Assembly: GCA_900696645.1 (NCBI GenBank)
Contig: CAADGV010000008.1
Location: forward strand, 1-10,948
DNA length: 10,948 nt
Source: an uncultured Chlorobiota bacterium
GTDB taxonomy: Bacteria > Bacteroidota > Ignavibacteria > UBA10030 > UBA6906
Reading direction: 5' to 3'
Under the pieces are notes generated by a model that did not search any database, was not told the origin of the DNA, and was given only the letters and a program-made list of their open reading frames with translations. The translations under genes and the position numbers were made by a program. Each line of letters begins with the position of its first letter. Position 1 is the first letter of the stretch. Below, one piece after another: positions 4,567-10,948 of this stretch.

Positions 4567-7500
4567 TTACAAATACCCATCATACCGCATCGTCTGATTC
4601 ATATCCTTCCGGAATCCGAGCGAAGTAAGCAACGGGCCGAAAGGAGAATTGGAGGGGCGTTCCCCGTTGCAATGCTCAACAACGATTTCTTTGAACGGGC
4701 GCAGCGGGTCAGGCAGTTTCATCAAAGCAAGAAGCTGCTTCATCACGTGAACGATTGTTTCGTTGGCCGGCTCGCCAACAGTGTGAATCCGTGCCCCGTT
4801 GCTTTCGACTACGAGAACCGGATTTCCTCGAAGGAATGCAATGTAGTTTGAAGGAATGCGCGAAGGCTGAACCGGAAGCGAGAAGTTGGCAACTCCCACA
4901 GGATTTGCAGGATCACATGCGTTCAGCAGAATCGGCTGTTCGGCAGTTGACGGAGTGCTGCGAACTCTTCGCAACGCATCAACTGCCGCGGGCAAGGCAT
5001 ACTGCATTCCCGACAATCCCTCCACAAAATAACCGCGCCGGATTTCTCCCCGCATTTCCATCCGCTGCAATTGTGCTGCAATCATTGCCCACGGAAGAAG
5101 TTCTTCTCGCTTGTAGAACTCTCTTGCGAGAATGCCGTAGCGATTCAACAGTAGAGTGGCTTGCGCTTCAGCCTTTTCCTCGAGTGTCATTTCCGGGCCG
5201 AGCACGCCGGGTAGATGTACGAGAGACCATCGTCCGCTCCAGCCCGGAACCTGCTTGAGCGCTTTGCGAACCGATTGCATTGCTTTGAACCGATACGGAT
5301 TGCGGCGGCCTGTTACGAGGTCAATCGGCTCCAACGGTTTTTCTTCGACGGACTTCGAGAGTCGTTTGACGGCGAGAAGTTCTGCAAAGACGTCGTTGGT
5401 GACGAGGCCGTTCCAGAACAACTCGGCGATGCCGTTGTTGATGGAATCAAGCGAAAGATGTGCGCCGCTGCGAATGTCGTGCAGGAACGAAGCACCATTT
5501 GCCCGAAGATACGTCAGGATGCGGCGTGAGGCTTCGGAAAGTCCGGCTTCAAACTCAGATGATTGTTGTTCGAGAAACGCCGAGCCTTCTCCGCGAACAA
5601 TACACTTGAGCTTGCCCGGTCCGCCCCCCGTCCAGACGATTGTCCCCGCCGCCGTCAGCGATGCAAGCGATTCCCTCGAATAGTTCTTGACTCGCCTGAA
5701 CAGAATCTCCCGCTCCCAAATCTCAGCCGGAAGGGGAAGAGCCTGGAGGTGTTCCAACACGGTTTGAATTCCCTCGTTGCCGATTTCTTGAGTGGAGGGA
5801 TGAAGCTTCTGCCAATGAAGGAGGAAGTTTGTGAACTCGGAAATCGATGAGGGCTGGATTTCCTTCCGGAGAATCGAAATGGTTTGGCGATGTATGCGTT
5901 CAAGATTCGTGCTGTACACGAACTGGGTGTCGGATGCATGGGGGGAGAACTTGCCCTCGACAACTTCCCTTGCCGTCGCCAGCTTGTTCAATAGATCGTT
6001 GACATTCTCGTGCTTGAATCCATAGCGGGCAGCAAGTTCATGAGAAGAAACCGGACCGTGATTTTGTAAATAGCGGCGGATGATGGCTGTCTGGTTTCGT
6101 TCGGAATCAATATGAGAATAGAGTTCATCCTCTTCGCCAGCAATCCATCGGGGCCCGGAAGGGAAATTCATCCGTATTGCGCGGCCGTTTTTCTCCAACT
6201 CATACAACATTGAAAGGTCGCCATGAACGATCCGTTCTGTGATTTCTTCTTCGGAGAGATCGCCGACGCGAAGAAGGATTTCTAACAATTCTTCGGGCGA
6301 TCGGGCTTTGTAGCCTTCGGCGGCGTGCTGCAACTGGCGTTCAACGGTTTCAATCGCTTCGGGACGAAGCATCTCACTCATCGAGTCGAGATCAACAACT
6401 TCGGAGAGAAGCTCCCGGTTCACTTCGAGGTAACGACTCATCCTGTCCGTTTTCGGCTCGTCCCACTCGTACATGTACACTTGAATGAAATCGAACAGCA
6501 GACTTGCAGCGAATGGCGACGGTACTTCCGTGTGGATGGAGTGCACGCGGATTTTTCCGTCGACAATCTCGTGCACGATCTCCTTGAAGTGATCGAAATC
6601 GAGAACGTCATTCAGCACGTCACGAATTGTCTCGATAACGATGGGGAAGTCGCTGTATTGTCTCGCAATCTGGAGAAGATCTTTGGCGCGCAGCCGTTGC
6701 AGCCAGAGCGGCGTTCGTTTGCCCGGAGCAATCTTTGGCATGAGCAAAGCGCGGGCGGCGTTCATGCGAAACTGTCCGCCGAAGAGGGGGGAGGAGAGAA
6801 GGTCGGTAAGAACGATATCCTCCGCCTCGCTCAATGTGAGATTGTCGGCAAGATTGAGAGGCAACTCGTCAACGTCTGGGCAGCGGAGCAGAATGCCGTC
6901 GTCGTTGTACAGCATTTGCGGTTCCGTGCCGATGAGTTGCTGGAGGCGGCGGGAGAAAAGAAGTCCCAACAATCCGTTCACTCTTCTTCCGAACGAAGAA
7001 TGAATGACGATGCGCGGGTCGCCCACTTCATCCCGGAATCCTTCAATCACCAACAGCTCGCTATGCGGAACGACGCCGGTGATGTTCTTCTGCTTGAGAA
7101 AATACTGCTCGATGTTCCACGCCGCTTTCGAGTCAACGGGGAATTCGGTTTGCAGCCATTTCAAACAGTCGGGCGAGTCAACCCGCTCACTCATTTCTTT
7201 TCTGAAATCGGCAACCTTCATGCTCAGCTCAAAACTTCTGCCGATTCCTTCGCCGCGCCAGAAGGGCATGCGTGCGGGCATGCCGGGAGCGGGGGCGACG
7301 GTGATTCGGTTTGCATCAATCTCCAACATTCTCCAGACACTCGAACCCAGAATGAACGTGTCGCCGGCCCGACTTTCATACACAAACTCTTCATCTACTT
7401 CGCCGACTTTCGTCTTGCCGTCTTCAAGGTACACGCCGAAGTAGCCGCGGTCGGCAATCGTGCCGCCGCTGGTGATAGCGAGTTGTGAACTGCCGGGCAA

Positions 7501-9102
7501 TGCACGCAGCGTGTTGTTCACCTTGTCCCACGAGATGCGGGCTCTGAGTTCTCTGAACATTTCGTTCGTGTATCTTCCGGCAAGCATATTCAGAACGCCG
7601 AGATACAGCTTCTCGGACAAGTCACGATAGCAGTAGGATTGTGTGACGAGAGAGAAGAGTTCATCAACATCCCATTCTTCAACACTCACCATTGCAACGA
7701 TTTGCTGAGCGAGAACGTCGAGGCAATGCATGGGAATGTTTGTGAACTCGACGTCATGCTGGATCATCGCCTTTGACACAACCGCCGACTCGACCAAATC
7801 CTCGCGGAACGTCGGGAAGATTCTTCCTTTGCTTGTTGCAGCAATGACATGTCCCGAACGCCCGACACGCTGCAACCCGCGTGCAACACCCTTCGGCGAC
7901 TGAAGCTGAATGACGAGATCGATGCTGCCGATATCAATGCCGAGTTCGAGCGACGACGTTGCAACGAGACAGCGGAGGTTCCCGGCTTTAAGTTCTGCCT
8001 CCATCTGCTCGCGGGCAGTTCGTGACATTGAGCCGTGGTAGGCTTGCACAAGGTCATTCCTTGGGATTGCGGATTGCGAATTGCCAATTGCGAATTCGTT
8101 GGAGCTTGGATCTTGTGATTTGGCATTTTTGAGAGTTACCGGGACTGCATACATATTGAATGTTCGTCCCTGTCCTGATCCCTCATTATCATCCCCCGTC
8201 ATCATCTCGTTCAGCTTCGCCGCAACACGCTCGGCAAGTCGCCGGTTGTTGACGAAGATGAGTGTTGTTTTGTGGAGAAGGATGAGTTGGAGAATTTCGG
8301 TAAACACCATCGGCCAGACGCTTTCAGCGGGGAGGTCGGAGAAGTCGGGCGGGGCACATTCCACCAGCAAATCCATTTGCTTTTTCTGTCCGGCATCAAC
8401 GATGTTCACGGGCCGGGGAATGAGTTTCTCTCCCTCACGCATCAGGCCGCCTAAGAACGCCGCAATATCTTCTAAAGGCCGTTGCGTCGCCGAAAGCCCG
8501 ATGCGGACGAATTCTTGTTCGGCAACCTCCTGCAATCTCTCCAACGTCAGCGAGAGATGCACGCCTCGTTTGTTGTTGCAGACGGAATGAATCTCATCTA
8601 CAATCACATACTGGACAGTCGTGAAAATCTTGCGTGCCTGCTTTGACGTGAGCATCAAGTACAACGACTCGGGCGTCGTAATGAGAATATCCGGCGGCGT
8701 GCGGATCATGGCGGCTCTCCGGGATTGCGGCGTGTCTCCTGTTCGTACTGCCGTCGTGATTGTCGGGGGTTTCAAGCCATCCGCTTCGGCTTCTTTTCTT
8801 ATTCCCTCAAGAGGCAATTCGAGATTTCTCTGGATGTCGTTGTTGAGAGCCTTCAACGGCGAGACATAGAGAATACGGACGCCGGGACTCAGTTCTTCAG
8901 CAAGATGTTGCTCAACAAGATGATTGATTGCCCAGAGAAACGCGGCGAGCGTTTTGCCCGAACCTGTCGGTGCGAGAATGAGCGTGTGGTTACCCGAGGA
9001 AATGCTCGGCCACCCCTGTACCTGCGGCGGACTCGGCTCTCCGAAAGTTCTCTCGAACCACCGGCGAACGATGGGGTGGAAGTCGTTGAGGGAAGGATGC
9101 AT
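4567..9102 (-). CDS. lhr: Lhr-type ATP-dependent DNA helicase (full length, with Lhr C-terminal region)
   Basis: This is a superfamily 2 helicase of 1511 residues, close to the length of E. coli Lhr (about 1538) and far longer than short Lhr-core proteins. All core motifs are visible: Walker A APTGSGKT (44-51), Ia YVSPLKALNND (79-89), the TTPESL motif (142-147), DEIH (169-172), SAT (204-206), IV LIFVNNRRLAER (281-292), V SSLELGIDIGS (383-393) and VI QRVGRSGH (411-418). Winged-helix and beta-barrel regions follow to about 890, including the DEAD/H-associated domain. Trp590 sits where mycobacterial Lhr has a base-stacking Trp, as far as I recall. Residues 891-1511 match the Lhr C-terminal extension, with winged-helix-like segments and a LLHWQKLHP stretch. 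Family members translocate 3'-5' on single-stranded DNA, unwind RNA:DNA or DNA duplexes and act in DNA repair. The oddity is an insertion of about 50 residues (301-350) between motifs IV and V, partly encoded by a 7-bp repeat array. The start fits the family N-terminus (FHPIVRRWF). The gene is monocistronic, and no metallophosphoesterase partner is present. Confidence 0.95.
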   Translation of the reverse strand: MHPSLNDFHPIVRRWFERTFGEPSPPQVQGWPSISSGNHTLILAPTGSGKTLAAFLWAINHLVEQHLAEELSPGVRILYVSPLKALNNDIQRNLELPLEGIRKEAEADGLKPPTITTAVRTGDTPQSRRAAMIRTPPDILITTPESLYLMLTSKQARKIFTTVQYVIVDEIHSVCNNKRGVHLSLTLERLQEVAEQEFVRIGLSATQRPLEDIAAFLGGLMREGEKLIPRPVNIVDAGQKKQMDLLVECAPPDFSDLPAESVWPMVFTEILQLILLHKTTLIFVNNRRLAERVAAKLNEMMTGDDNEGSGQGRTFNMYAVPVTLKNAKSQDPSSNEFAIGNSQSAIPRNDLVQAYHGSMSRTAREQMEAELKAGNLRCLVATSSLELGIDIGSIDLVIQLQSPKGVARGLQRVGRSGHVIAATSKGRIFPTFREDLVESAVVSKAMIQHDVEFTNIPMHCLDVLAQQIVAMVSVEEWDVDELFSLVTQSYCYRDLSEKLYLGVLNMLAGRYTNEMFRELRARISWDKVNNTLRALPGSSQLAITSGGTIADRGYFGVYLEDGKTKVGEVDEEFVYESRAGDTFILGSSVWRMLEIDANRITVAPAPGMPARMPFWRGEGIGRSFELSMKVADFRKEMSERVDSPDCLKWLQTEFPVDSKAAWNIEQYFLKQKNITGVVPHSELLVIEGFRDEVGDPRIVIHSSFGRRVNGLLGLLFSRRLQQLIGTEPQMLYNDDGILLRCPDVDELPLNLADNLTLSEAEDIVLTDLLSSPLFGGQFRMNAARALLMPKIAPGKRTPLWLQRLRAKDLLQIARQYSDFPIVIETIRDVLNDVLDFDHFKEIVHEIVDGKIRVHSIHTEVPSPFAASLLFDFIQVYMYEWDEPKTDRMSRYLEVNRELLSEVVDLDSMSEMLRPEAIETVERQLQHAAEGYKARSPEELLEILLRVGDLSEEEITERIVHGDLSMLYELEKNGRAIRMNFPSGPRWIAGEEDELYSHIDSERNQTAIIRRYLQNHGPVSSHELAARYGFKHENVNDLLNKLATAREVVEGKFSPHASDTQFVYSTNLERIHRQTISILRKEIQPSSISEFTNFLLHWQKLHPSTQEIGNEGIQTVLEHLQALPLPAEIWEREILFRRVKNYSRESLASLTAAGTIVWTGGGPGKLKCIVRGEGSAFLEQQSSEFEAGLSEASRRILTYLRANGASFLHDIRSGAHLSLDSINNGIAELFWNGLVTNDVFAELLAVKRLSKSVEEKPLEPIDLVTGRRNPYRFKAMQSVRKALKQVPGWSGRWSLVHLPGVLGPEMTLEEKAEAQATLLLNRYGILAREFYKREELLPWAMIAAQLQRMEMRGEIRRGYFVEGLSGMQYALPAAVDALRRVRSTPSTAEQPILLNACDPANPVGVANFSLPVQPSRIPSNYIAFLRGNPVLVVESNGARIHTVGEPANETIVHVMKQLLALMKLPDPLRPFKEIVVEHCNGERPSNSPFGPLLTSLGFRKDMNQTMRYDGYL
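8064..8126. repeat. Nine-unit heptanucleotide array inside helicase gene
   Basis: On the plus strand, nine contiguous 7-bp units fill exactly 63 bp. Five are of the type gRattgc (ggattgc twice, gaattgc, caattgc, gaattcg). Four are of the type ttggNNY or close (ttggagc, ttggatc, ttgtgat, ttggcat). Because 63 is a multiple of three, the helicase frame is kept. The array encodes residues 326-347, in which the 7-residue period shows as recurring Asn-Ser-Gln / Ser-Ala-Ile. It lies in a loop between motifs IV and V. The array resembles the leader array at 109-143 in unit length only. Confidence 0.75.
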
Positions 9103-9361: not shown

Positions 9362-9439
9362 ATGAAAAAGAAGATCATCATTTCGACCGCAGGCGTTGCC
9401 GTGCTGCGTGCTTGTCGGCGATCTCGACAACGACGGTGA
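9362..9439 (+). pseudogene. Out-of-frame signal-peptide start of FG-GAP gene
   Basis: From ATG 9362 the reading is MKKKIIISTAGVAVL, a typical basic plus hydrophobic signal-peptide start. It is followed by an Arg-rich out-of-frame tail and a TGA at 9437-9439. The body of the gene is in another frame, which is closed upstream by a TGA at 9363. The fragment therefore looks like the original 5' end, separated from the body by an indel. The near-repeat cgtgctg / cgtgctt (9400-9413) sits at the junction. Confidence 0.65.
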
Positions 9440-10829
9440 GGCAGAGGTGGTCTACTATCTTTATGAGGGAGCGCCGGCAGCGAACGGTACATTGATAGTA
9501 TACAAGAATATTGGCAATAACCAATACATCGTCGTATGGGATACGCTCATGTCTTACGGCGGATACCCGTTTGCGATTACGGATATTGATAATGACGGAC
9601 GAAAAGAGATTGTTGTGCATTACAATTCAGGAGAGAACTGTTCAGCGATTGGCTTATTGGAGTGCTTCGGCCCCGGGCAATTCCGTTTCTACAGCACGAA
9701 TATCTGCGGCCCGCGAGGAGCGGTGAAAGTGCTGGAGACCGACGTGAACGACGATGGCGTCAAAGAACTCTCAGTTCTTTTTTCGGACACATGGCCCCAG
9801 TATGACCGTACGTTCGTTGACATCGCCCAGTATACAGGCAAATACCCTTGTGGCAGCGGATGTACGGGATGGTTTATGTCATTCAGCCCGCAACGCTTAG
9901 CACGGTACAATTGGTACATAACGGATTTTGCAGTGGGACAGGTGGATGGCGAAGGCTGGGATGAGATCATTTTGGGGGATGGCGGTTTCCTTTCAGGCGG
10001 AGGGCAGCCGGAGTATATCACCTACCTAAAGTACACGCCCCCGGATGGACCTTTCTCGTGGCGTCCACACTATTTTTCCGTTGGGCTCCCCGTTCTTTGT
10101 ACTGCGCCGATGTTCATCAACCTCGACGGCGACCGCGCCAAAGAAATGTTCATTGGTGGTGTGGGCCCGCACGGACGCGGCTCGGCGTACGCCATCAAAT
10201 ATACTTCCGACAGTACATGGCAGACAATGTGGATTGATTCTACGTTCCAGAGTTCTCCGCTGTGGGTAAACGATGGCACTTTCTATGAAAATCGAATCGT
10301 TGCTGGCGCGAACTGGTTCGAGATCCAGAATGAAACGTACAGTGGCATACGGCTCTACTCTCTTACAGGACAAGGTCTCGGGACGTGGCGTCGAGACAGT
10401 GCCGTGATTTGGATGTTTCATCTTCTGGATATTGATAGAGATTCATCACCCAATCTGGTTTTTGCGCAAGGCTCATTGGTATATGGGCATCGCGCTGTTG
10501 ATTTTGAGATTGCGCCGACATTGGCCATACAAACAATGCTACCCACCCCATCCCGGGCATTTCTTTATCAGAACTCTCCTAATCCTTTCAATCCATCCAC
10601 CACCATCATGATTGACCTCGAACAGCCGACTGCTATTCAACTCACAGTGTTTGATGTTCTGGGAAGGAGAGTTACCAGCCTTGCCAATGAAATGAAAGAC
10701 GCAGGCTTGCACATGTACGTCTGGCAGGGAACTGACGACAACACGGCCCCATTGTCGAGCGGCATCTATCTGTATGAGCTGAGAACTGATCATTCCTTAT
10801 TCCGCAAGAAAATGATTCTGTTGAGATAG
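9396..10829 (+). CDS. FG-GAP/VCBS repeat protein with T9SS sorting domain, 5' end disrupted
   Basis: The open frame from TTG 9396 gives 477 residues without a signal peptide. TTG is only the first possible start in this frame; the natural start is probably ATG 9362 in another frame. Six calcium-binding FG-GAP-type motifs recur: DLDNDGEAEV (9-18), DIDNDGRKEI (63-72), DVNDDGVKEL (116-125), VDGEGWDEI (183-191), NLDGDRAKEM (242-251) and DIDRDSSPNL (345-354). The last three are degenerate. Repeats of this kind build integrin-alpha-like beta-propellers. Residues 391-477 are a T9SS type A sorting domain (YQNSPNPFNPSTTI, then VFDVLGRRVTSL, then SSGIYLYEL, ending KKMILLR). The first FG-GAP motif falls only nine residues from the TTG, so some N-terminal sequence is probably missing. 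If the frame is really broken, the protein would not be exported. If the break is an assembly error, this is an ordinary T9SS cargo protein that binds an unknown surface or extracellular partner. Confidence 0.8.
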   Translation: MPCCVLVGDLDNDGEAEVVYYLYEGAPAANGTLIVYKNIGNNQYIVVWDTLMSYGGYPFAITDIDNDGRKEIVVHYNSGENCSAIGLLECFGPGQFRFYSTNICGPRGAVKVLETDVNDDGVKELSVLFSDTWPQYDRTFVDIAQYTGKYPCGSGCTGWFMSFSPQRLARYNWYITDFAVGQVDGEGWDEIILGDGGFLSGGGQPEYITYLKYTPPDGPFSWRPHYFSVGLPVLCTAPMFINLDGDRAKEMFIGGVGPHGRGSAYAIKYTSDSTWQTMWIDSTFQSSPLWVNDGTFYENRIVAGANWFEIQNETYSGIRLYSLTGQGLGTWRRDSAVIWMFHLLDIDRDSSPNLVFAQGSLVYGHRAVDFEIAPTLAIQTMLPTPSRAFLYQNSPNPFNPSTTIMIDLEQPTAIQLTVFDVLGRRVTSLANEMKDAGLHMYVWQGTDDNTAPLSSGIYLYELRTDHSLFRKKMILLR

Positions 10830-10879
10830 GTTCAAATGACCACTGGTGACAAAAGTAGACAGGTTTTTTGAGGCATATT

Positions 10880-10939
10880 CCACAGGAATGGAGGTCGAAA
10901 GCGGAGTCCCAAGTGGTTGGGACTCCGCCATTCCCGTGG
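10880..10939. repeat. Long two-part stem after FG-GAP gene
   Basis: The inner stem is GCGGAGTCCCAA (10901-10912) with TTGGGACTCCGC (10917-10928), 12 bp perfect with a GTGG loop. The outer stem is CCAC, one mismatch, GGAATGG (10880-10891) with CCATTCC, mismatch, GTGG (10928-10939), sharing one base with the inner stem. Nine unpaired bases (10892-10900) lie on the 5' side. No T-run follows on the plus strand; on the minus strand the inner stem is followed by TTTC. It may be a transcription-end structure for either direction, or a dispersed palindromic repeat. Confidence 0.65.
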
Positions 10940-10948
10940 GTCCGGCTA

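Follow-up and report, generated by a model that had tools for sequence, protein, structure and literature searches.

A heptamer array in the reading frame of a helicase gene

How does a run of seven-base repeats come to lie within the reading frame of a conserved helicase, and why is it tolerated there? The question is raised by the window, that is, the whole stretch of 10,948 nucleotides analysed here, in which a degenerate heptamer array occupies positions 8064-8126 on the minus strand. Its host is a full-length Lhr-type ATP-dependent helicase gene (4567-9102, minus strand; 1511 aa), assigned by domain and structure matches: the protein combines an SF2 helicase core with the Lhr winged-helix and DEAD_assoc domains (DEAD, Helicase_C, WH_Lhr, DEAD_assoc and WH3/4_Lhr), its top match is PRK09751, at 986 bits, which lies under the NCBIfam equivalog cut-off of 1496 bits, and its structure match is 7lhl_A (E 1.8e-289). 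The position of the array, in frame at about residues 326-347, is as it had been given in the earlier, sequence-only reading. That reading described nine unbroken 7-bp units over 63 bp; the period is real and beyond chance, but Tandem Repeats Finder accepts 8066-8096 alone (minus strand; 4.4 copies of ATTGCGA as written on the plus strand, score 48, 87% matches), and the remainder of the array is degenerate. The period-7 maximum of the entire 10.9-kb window starts at 8064-8066, where 37 of 56 positions match, and Markov simulations of the window reach a score of 31 at most. When codons were redrawn synonymously with the Lhr protein kept, none of 20,000 redraws attained the observed segment score; the period therefore belongs to the DNA and not to the peptide, and a protein-level origin is rejected. 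Chance periodicity, or an artefact of a metagenome-assembled genome, might be suspected here: the contig is short, the assembly has 46 contigs, and its near relative is a groundwater MAG. This suspicion is scarcely credible given that the null models fall below the score of the array and that a separate assembly of the genus has an orthologous one.

On the coding strand the array reads CAAATCA, CAAGATC, CAAGCTC, CAACGAA, TTCGCAA, TTGGCAA, TTCGCAA, TCCGCAA, in which the two unit families recognised earlier are visible in a single register, namely CAATTCG/CAATTGG/CAATCCG and a looser CAANNTC, the latter plainer in the sister genome (G001) than in the parent genome (G000). With 7-bp tandem units above chance, dispersed at many loci, the array has the features of a heptanucleotide long simple sequence repeat. 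Neither strand holds four G-runs of at least three bases, so it does not belong with the G-quadruplex heptamers (GGGNATC), and the TAACTGA/TCAGTTA unit was not found among its CAATTCG, CAATCCG and CAANNTC units. Since 7 and 3 share no factor, the three frames of a strand are, for any heptamer unit, either all open or all blocked; the Lhr units AATTCGC, AATTGGC, AATCCGC, CAAATCC and CAAGCTC are free of stops in three frames on both strands.

The loop that holds the array

The array lies within a variable loop of 62 aa (8044-8229, minus strand) that lies between FVNNRRLAE, in the motif IV region, and AYHGSMSR and measures 41-135 aa in relatives. It had been supposed that about 50 residues here are an insertion that arrived with the repeat, other Lhr proteins having a short loop only. 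The comparison does not sustain this: the 25 aligned Lhr loops, of which 22 come from other genera, are 41-79 residues long, apart from one of 135; beyond the genus, almost all genomes of the family and order have 41-68 residues here, again apart from the one with 135. Relatives that lack the array thus have a loop of similar length, and the M. smegmatis Lhr structures (5v9x, 7lhl) also have a long segment at this position, so the 50-residue stretch is the normal loop of the family. The same reading had named, as evidence against itself, relatives carrying the same 50 residues in non-repetitive form; a repeat-free loop of similar length does occur in relatives, but its residues differ.

No strong period-7 array was found in any of the 22 loops from outside the genus. 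Among the 25 loops tested, strong signals are confined to period 7 in G000 and G001 and period 8 in the third congener, G002, the others being weak; one of these (L019, G034), which belongs to a different family within the order, has a period-7 p of 0.047 and two AATCCG units. The loop of 135 residues (G017, L028 1116-1521, minus strand) contains a longer, protein-level tandem repeat, TLPVEGTER, which again points to a repeat-tolerant slot. In an AlphaFold2 model whose confidence is modest overall (mean pLDDT 63.1), the loop has pLDDT 27-38 and no secondary structure, and values are below 50 at residues 305-348. Between G000 and G001, 9 of the 24 loop codons outside the array differ nonsynonymously, compared with 25 of the 300 core codons that precede the loop, and these figures and the low pLDDT agree with the earlier suggestion of a neutral surface loop. 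Judged by alignment and structure prediction, the loop is old, fast-evolving and disordered, and only its content is repeat.

One loop in three congeners

The genus sample consists of three genomes and one Lhr locus: the parent, its sister G001, and G002, the Ignavibacteriae groundwater MAG with which the lineage is grouped. The G001 loop has the array as in G000 plus 51 bp, mostly of AATCCG units; 51 is 49 + 2, divisible by 3 and not by 7, as expected where only frame-keeping changes survive. The G002 loop has the same length, shares few residues with its congeners and carries four TCCATC units in period 8 (20 of 28 matches, p <0.001 against synonymous redraws). On the sequences of this one loop in three genomes, we take the site to be fixed and the units to follow the genome.

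The codons of the array itself add to this picture. G000 and G001 differ there by 4 nucleotides in 20 codons, with a single synonymous change; 1.6% of 20-codon windows are equally low in synonymous changes and 15% in total differences. The coexistence of few synonymous with some amino-acid changes points to a history at the level of the DNA rather than of the protein; the low divergence could alternatively reflect a constraint on the DNA, and with 4 nucleotide differences this is a weak test. It has to be asked whether the peptide encoded by the repeat serves Lhr as a functional linker under selection, as might be thought from a frame open in all genomes and a loop present throughout the family. 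We hold this to be very improbable, given that the residues are unconserved even within the genus, as in the G002 loop, and that 3 of the 5 array codons changed between G000 and G001 are nonsynonymous, the core proportion being about one in five.

A dispersed family of short repeats

The units of the Lhr array recur at other loci throughout the parent genome. A search with the AATYSGN array pattern gave 54 hits in G000, 54 in G001 and 20 in G002, with none for the reversed-pattern control, and for TCCATC arrays all 51 hits fell in G002, G000 and G001 having none. The case for a dispersed family is carried by these pattern searches with reversed controls, an imperfect control in that it also matches in some Bacteroidota genomes; for the CAARNTC pattern it also matches in G002, so that the second unit family is supported in G000 and G001 only. 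The survey of the parent genome covered 40 stretches (0.74 Mb), four of them chosen for holding arrays, and its period-7 count, biased upward for that reason, is used qualitatively. Across 296 genomes of the phylum, pattern matches are patchy: 92 genomes have any, mostly few, and three have more than 70. The idea of a spreading repeat family, put forward from the window alone, is supported in that a dispersed family with these units exists in the genome, and the absence of other arrays with the same units from the genome, which had been named as the finding that would speak against it, is not what is observed. An intragenic heptamer array had also been thought exceptional, which is not supported for this genome, as other arrays of the parent genome too lie within long open frames; those families that are open on one strand only sit, where they are in long frames, in the open orientation.

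Two observations concern related arrays. In G002, loci L213, L215 and L217 hold long, near-pure TCCATCA(N) arrays with 7- or 8-bp periods, and CCAACA(N) variants occur in L212. The window itself has a second period-7 array (TCGCCAT, 108-142), just upstream of the gene at 159-1256; positions 1-247, this array included, are 88% identical to a stretch on another contig (array at L044 18828-18887), which implies that array and flank were duplicated together.

Other sites where units differ

Similar slots are found in paralogous type IX secretion (T9SS) tails of the parent genome, where the motif NPFNP is followed by heptamer arrays, of six or more unit families in all (loci L193, L197, L050, L052, L058, L118, L121, L201, L206, L208 and L210), that encode peptides such as ISYQLSAFS, INYQLPTTS, IEFRISNFG and IKFQIPNSN. 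The period-7 slot is present in 8 of 54 tails (p <=0.01 against synonymous redraws; other periods in 0 or 1), a sample in which some tails were drawn from stretches selected for arrays. The slot in these tails is possibly of greater interest than the Lhr array. In addition, window positions 10819-10947 match the opening 129 bases of contig C12 at 99% identity, and a number of contigs start about 130 bases ahead of a T9SS tail (contig ends C9, C11, C12, C36, C39 and C40); repeated tails probably break the assembly. A signal-peptide-like start (MKKKIIISTAGVAVL, 9362-9440) lies out of frame with the FG-GAP/T9SS protein at 9396-10829, suggesting, from the sequence, a frameshift or deletion at the start of that gene.

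At two intergenic sites, L049 and L082, heptamer arrays lie in inverted arms in G000 as well as in G001, with differing units. At L082 (8850-8950; L139 in G001, L140 in G002) hairpins occur in all three congeners, built of dissimilar units (z = -5.0, -3.9 and -6.5), at L049 (7260-7350, with L131) they occur in G000 and G001 (z = -3.6 and -5.1), and at L079 a weak hairpin occurs in G000 alone (z = -2.0 versus +0.2). Both arms at L082 and L049 are built of repeat units, and they are swapped together between congeners. Given that the same kind of repeat makes intergenic hairpins in the genus, and that in-frame palindromic elements are known in conserved Rickettsia genes (PMC10969869), it could be imagined that a mobile element of that kind, or of the MITE kind, was inserted in frame into the Lhr loop. 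The Lhr copy, however, does not form a hairpin (fold z = 0.05 in G000 and 0.56 in G001), and a hairpin role is rejected for it. Conserved element boundaries are absent, the loop has an ordinary length without the array, neither a target-site duplication nor an empty site was seen in the three genus genomes, and array-free loops of similar length occur in other genera. An insertion of this type is, in our judgement, distinctly improbable.

How the array may have arisen

We propose, as the probable explanation, that the Lhr array is one copy of a dispersed, degenerate class of short tandem repeats, of about 7 bp, or 8 bp in one relative, occupying an old, disordered and poorly constrained loop. 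The loop would determine where a repeat can live, and the current family of the genome would determine its units. The array would do no visible work for the helicase and would survive on account of units that are free of stops in all six frames, so that only its total length must remain a multiple of three. Slippage would make arrays grow and shrink, and ectopic copying, by template switching or gene conversion, from arrays elsewhere in the genome would seed or overwrite them; we infer that the short repeats are neutral or selfish, that the loop is permissive and that the two processes together maintain the array.

It could be objected that replication slippage alone suffices, a chance 7-bp duplication having expanded in place with no exchange between arrays. 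Most genomes have heptanucleotides as their commonest long simple repeats, and slippage at the length of polymerase contact has been proposed, according to the passages of PMC4679880 (citing Mrazek 2007) and PMC4692102 that deal with this point; the copy number of the array also differs between G000 and G001. Slippage alone, however, predicts neither that the loop units match each genome's own family nor that AATTCG gives way to TCCATC at the same place in a congener, and we consider it rather unlikely. Some exchange between arrays is inferred because the units in the loop are those found genome-wide; a shared ancient array that drifted and was then re-expanded locally might yield part of the pattern. 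A stronger form of the proposal, which we advance only tentatively, is that active ectopic copying overwrites arrays at fixed permissive sites (the Lhr loop, the paralogous protein tails and both arms of the intergenic hairpins) with the current family of the genome, site and structure persisting as the sequence changes.

A fixed, tolerant slot in a conserved gene, with a repeat family that differs between congeners, separates where a repeat lies, which is inherited, from what it consists of, which is drawn from the units of the genome. This separation speaks against slippage that is local only and means that ectopic copying can be tested, and the slot bears on why bacterial short repeats prefer a 7-bp period and on how they spread, of which the Lhr loop is a small natural record. 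For annotation it is a warning: where peptides such as NSQFAIR, NPQSAIR and HHSIP turn up in unrelated proteins, a DNA repeat that has been read through can be the cause, and not homology.

Comparison with known repeat systems

The closest framework is that of the heptanucleotide long simple sequence repeats of Xanthomonas (GGGAATC) and Nostoc (GGGGA(C/T)T), dispersed arrays that count 2-26 units, often lie between genes of the same orientation, and differ in units and lengths at shared sites of close relatives; in Xanthomonas they form convergent inverted pairs, and 7-11% are intragenic (PMC4692102). Since that work already describes both the inverted pairs and the variation at intergenic sites that relatives share, the intergenic part of our results is not new in kind. 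The repeats described here differ in comprising several unit families per genome, in being richer in A+T and without obvious potential to form quadruplexes, and in occupying coding slots, namely the Lhr loop and the T9SS tails. In the open-licence literature we found no description of these unit families, of short repeats in T9SS tails or of the replacement of a unit family in a fixed coding slot. The TAACTGA heptamers of Beggiatoaceae, cyanobacteria and some Bacteroidetes are dispersed near start codons and sporadic across phyla; within genes they lie mostly at protein ends, in an orientation set by stop codons (PMC4679880). The TCAGCTA units of the T9SS tails resemble their complement, TCAGTTA (PMC4679880), whereas the Lhr units (AATTCGC/AATCCGC/CAAATCC) form another family, open in six frames. 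Geobacter metallireducens has a 49-copy element with four GGGACCG heptamers, inside and between genes (PMC2700814), which is comparable in being a multi-copy heptamer of both genic and intergenic location; it is a single, homogeneous, GC-rich family, and the part of PMC2700814 that treats it does not describe species-specific replacement. The palindromic elements of Rickettsia, mobile and about 150 bp long, differ from the Lhr array, which is tandem and has neither a hairpin nor a visible insertion event, but they share with it the tolerance of dispersed DNA in frame within conserved proteins (PMC10969869).
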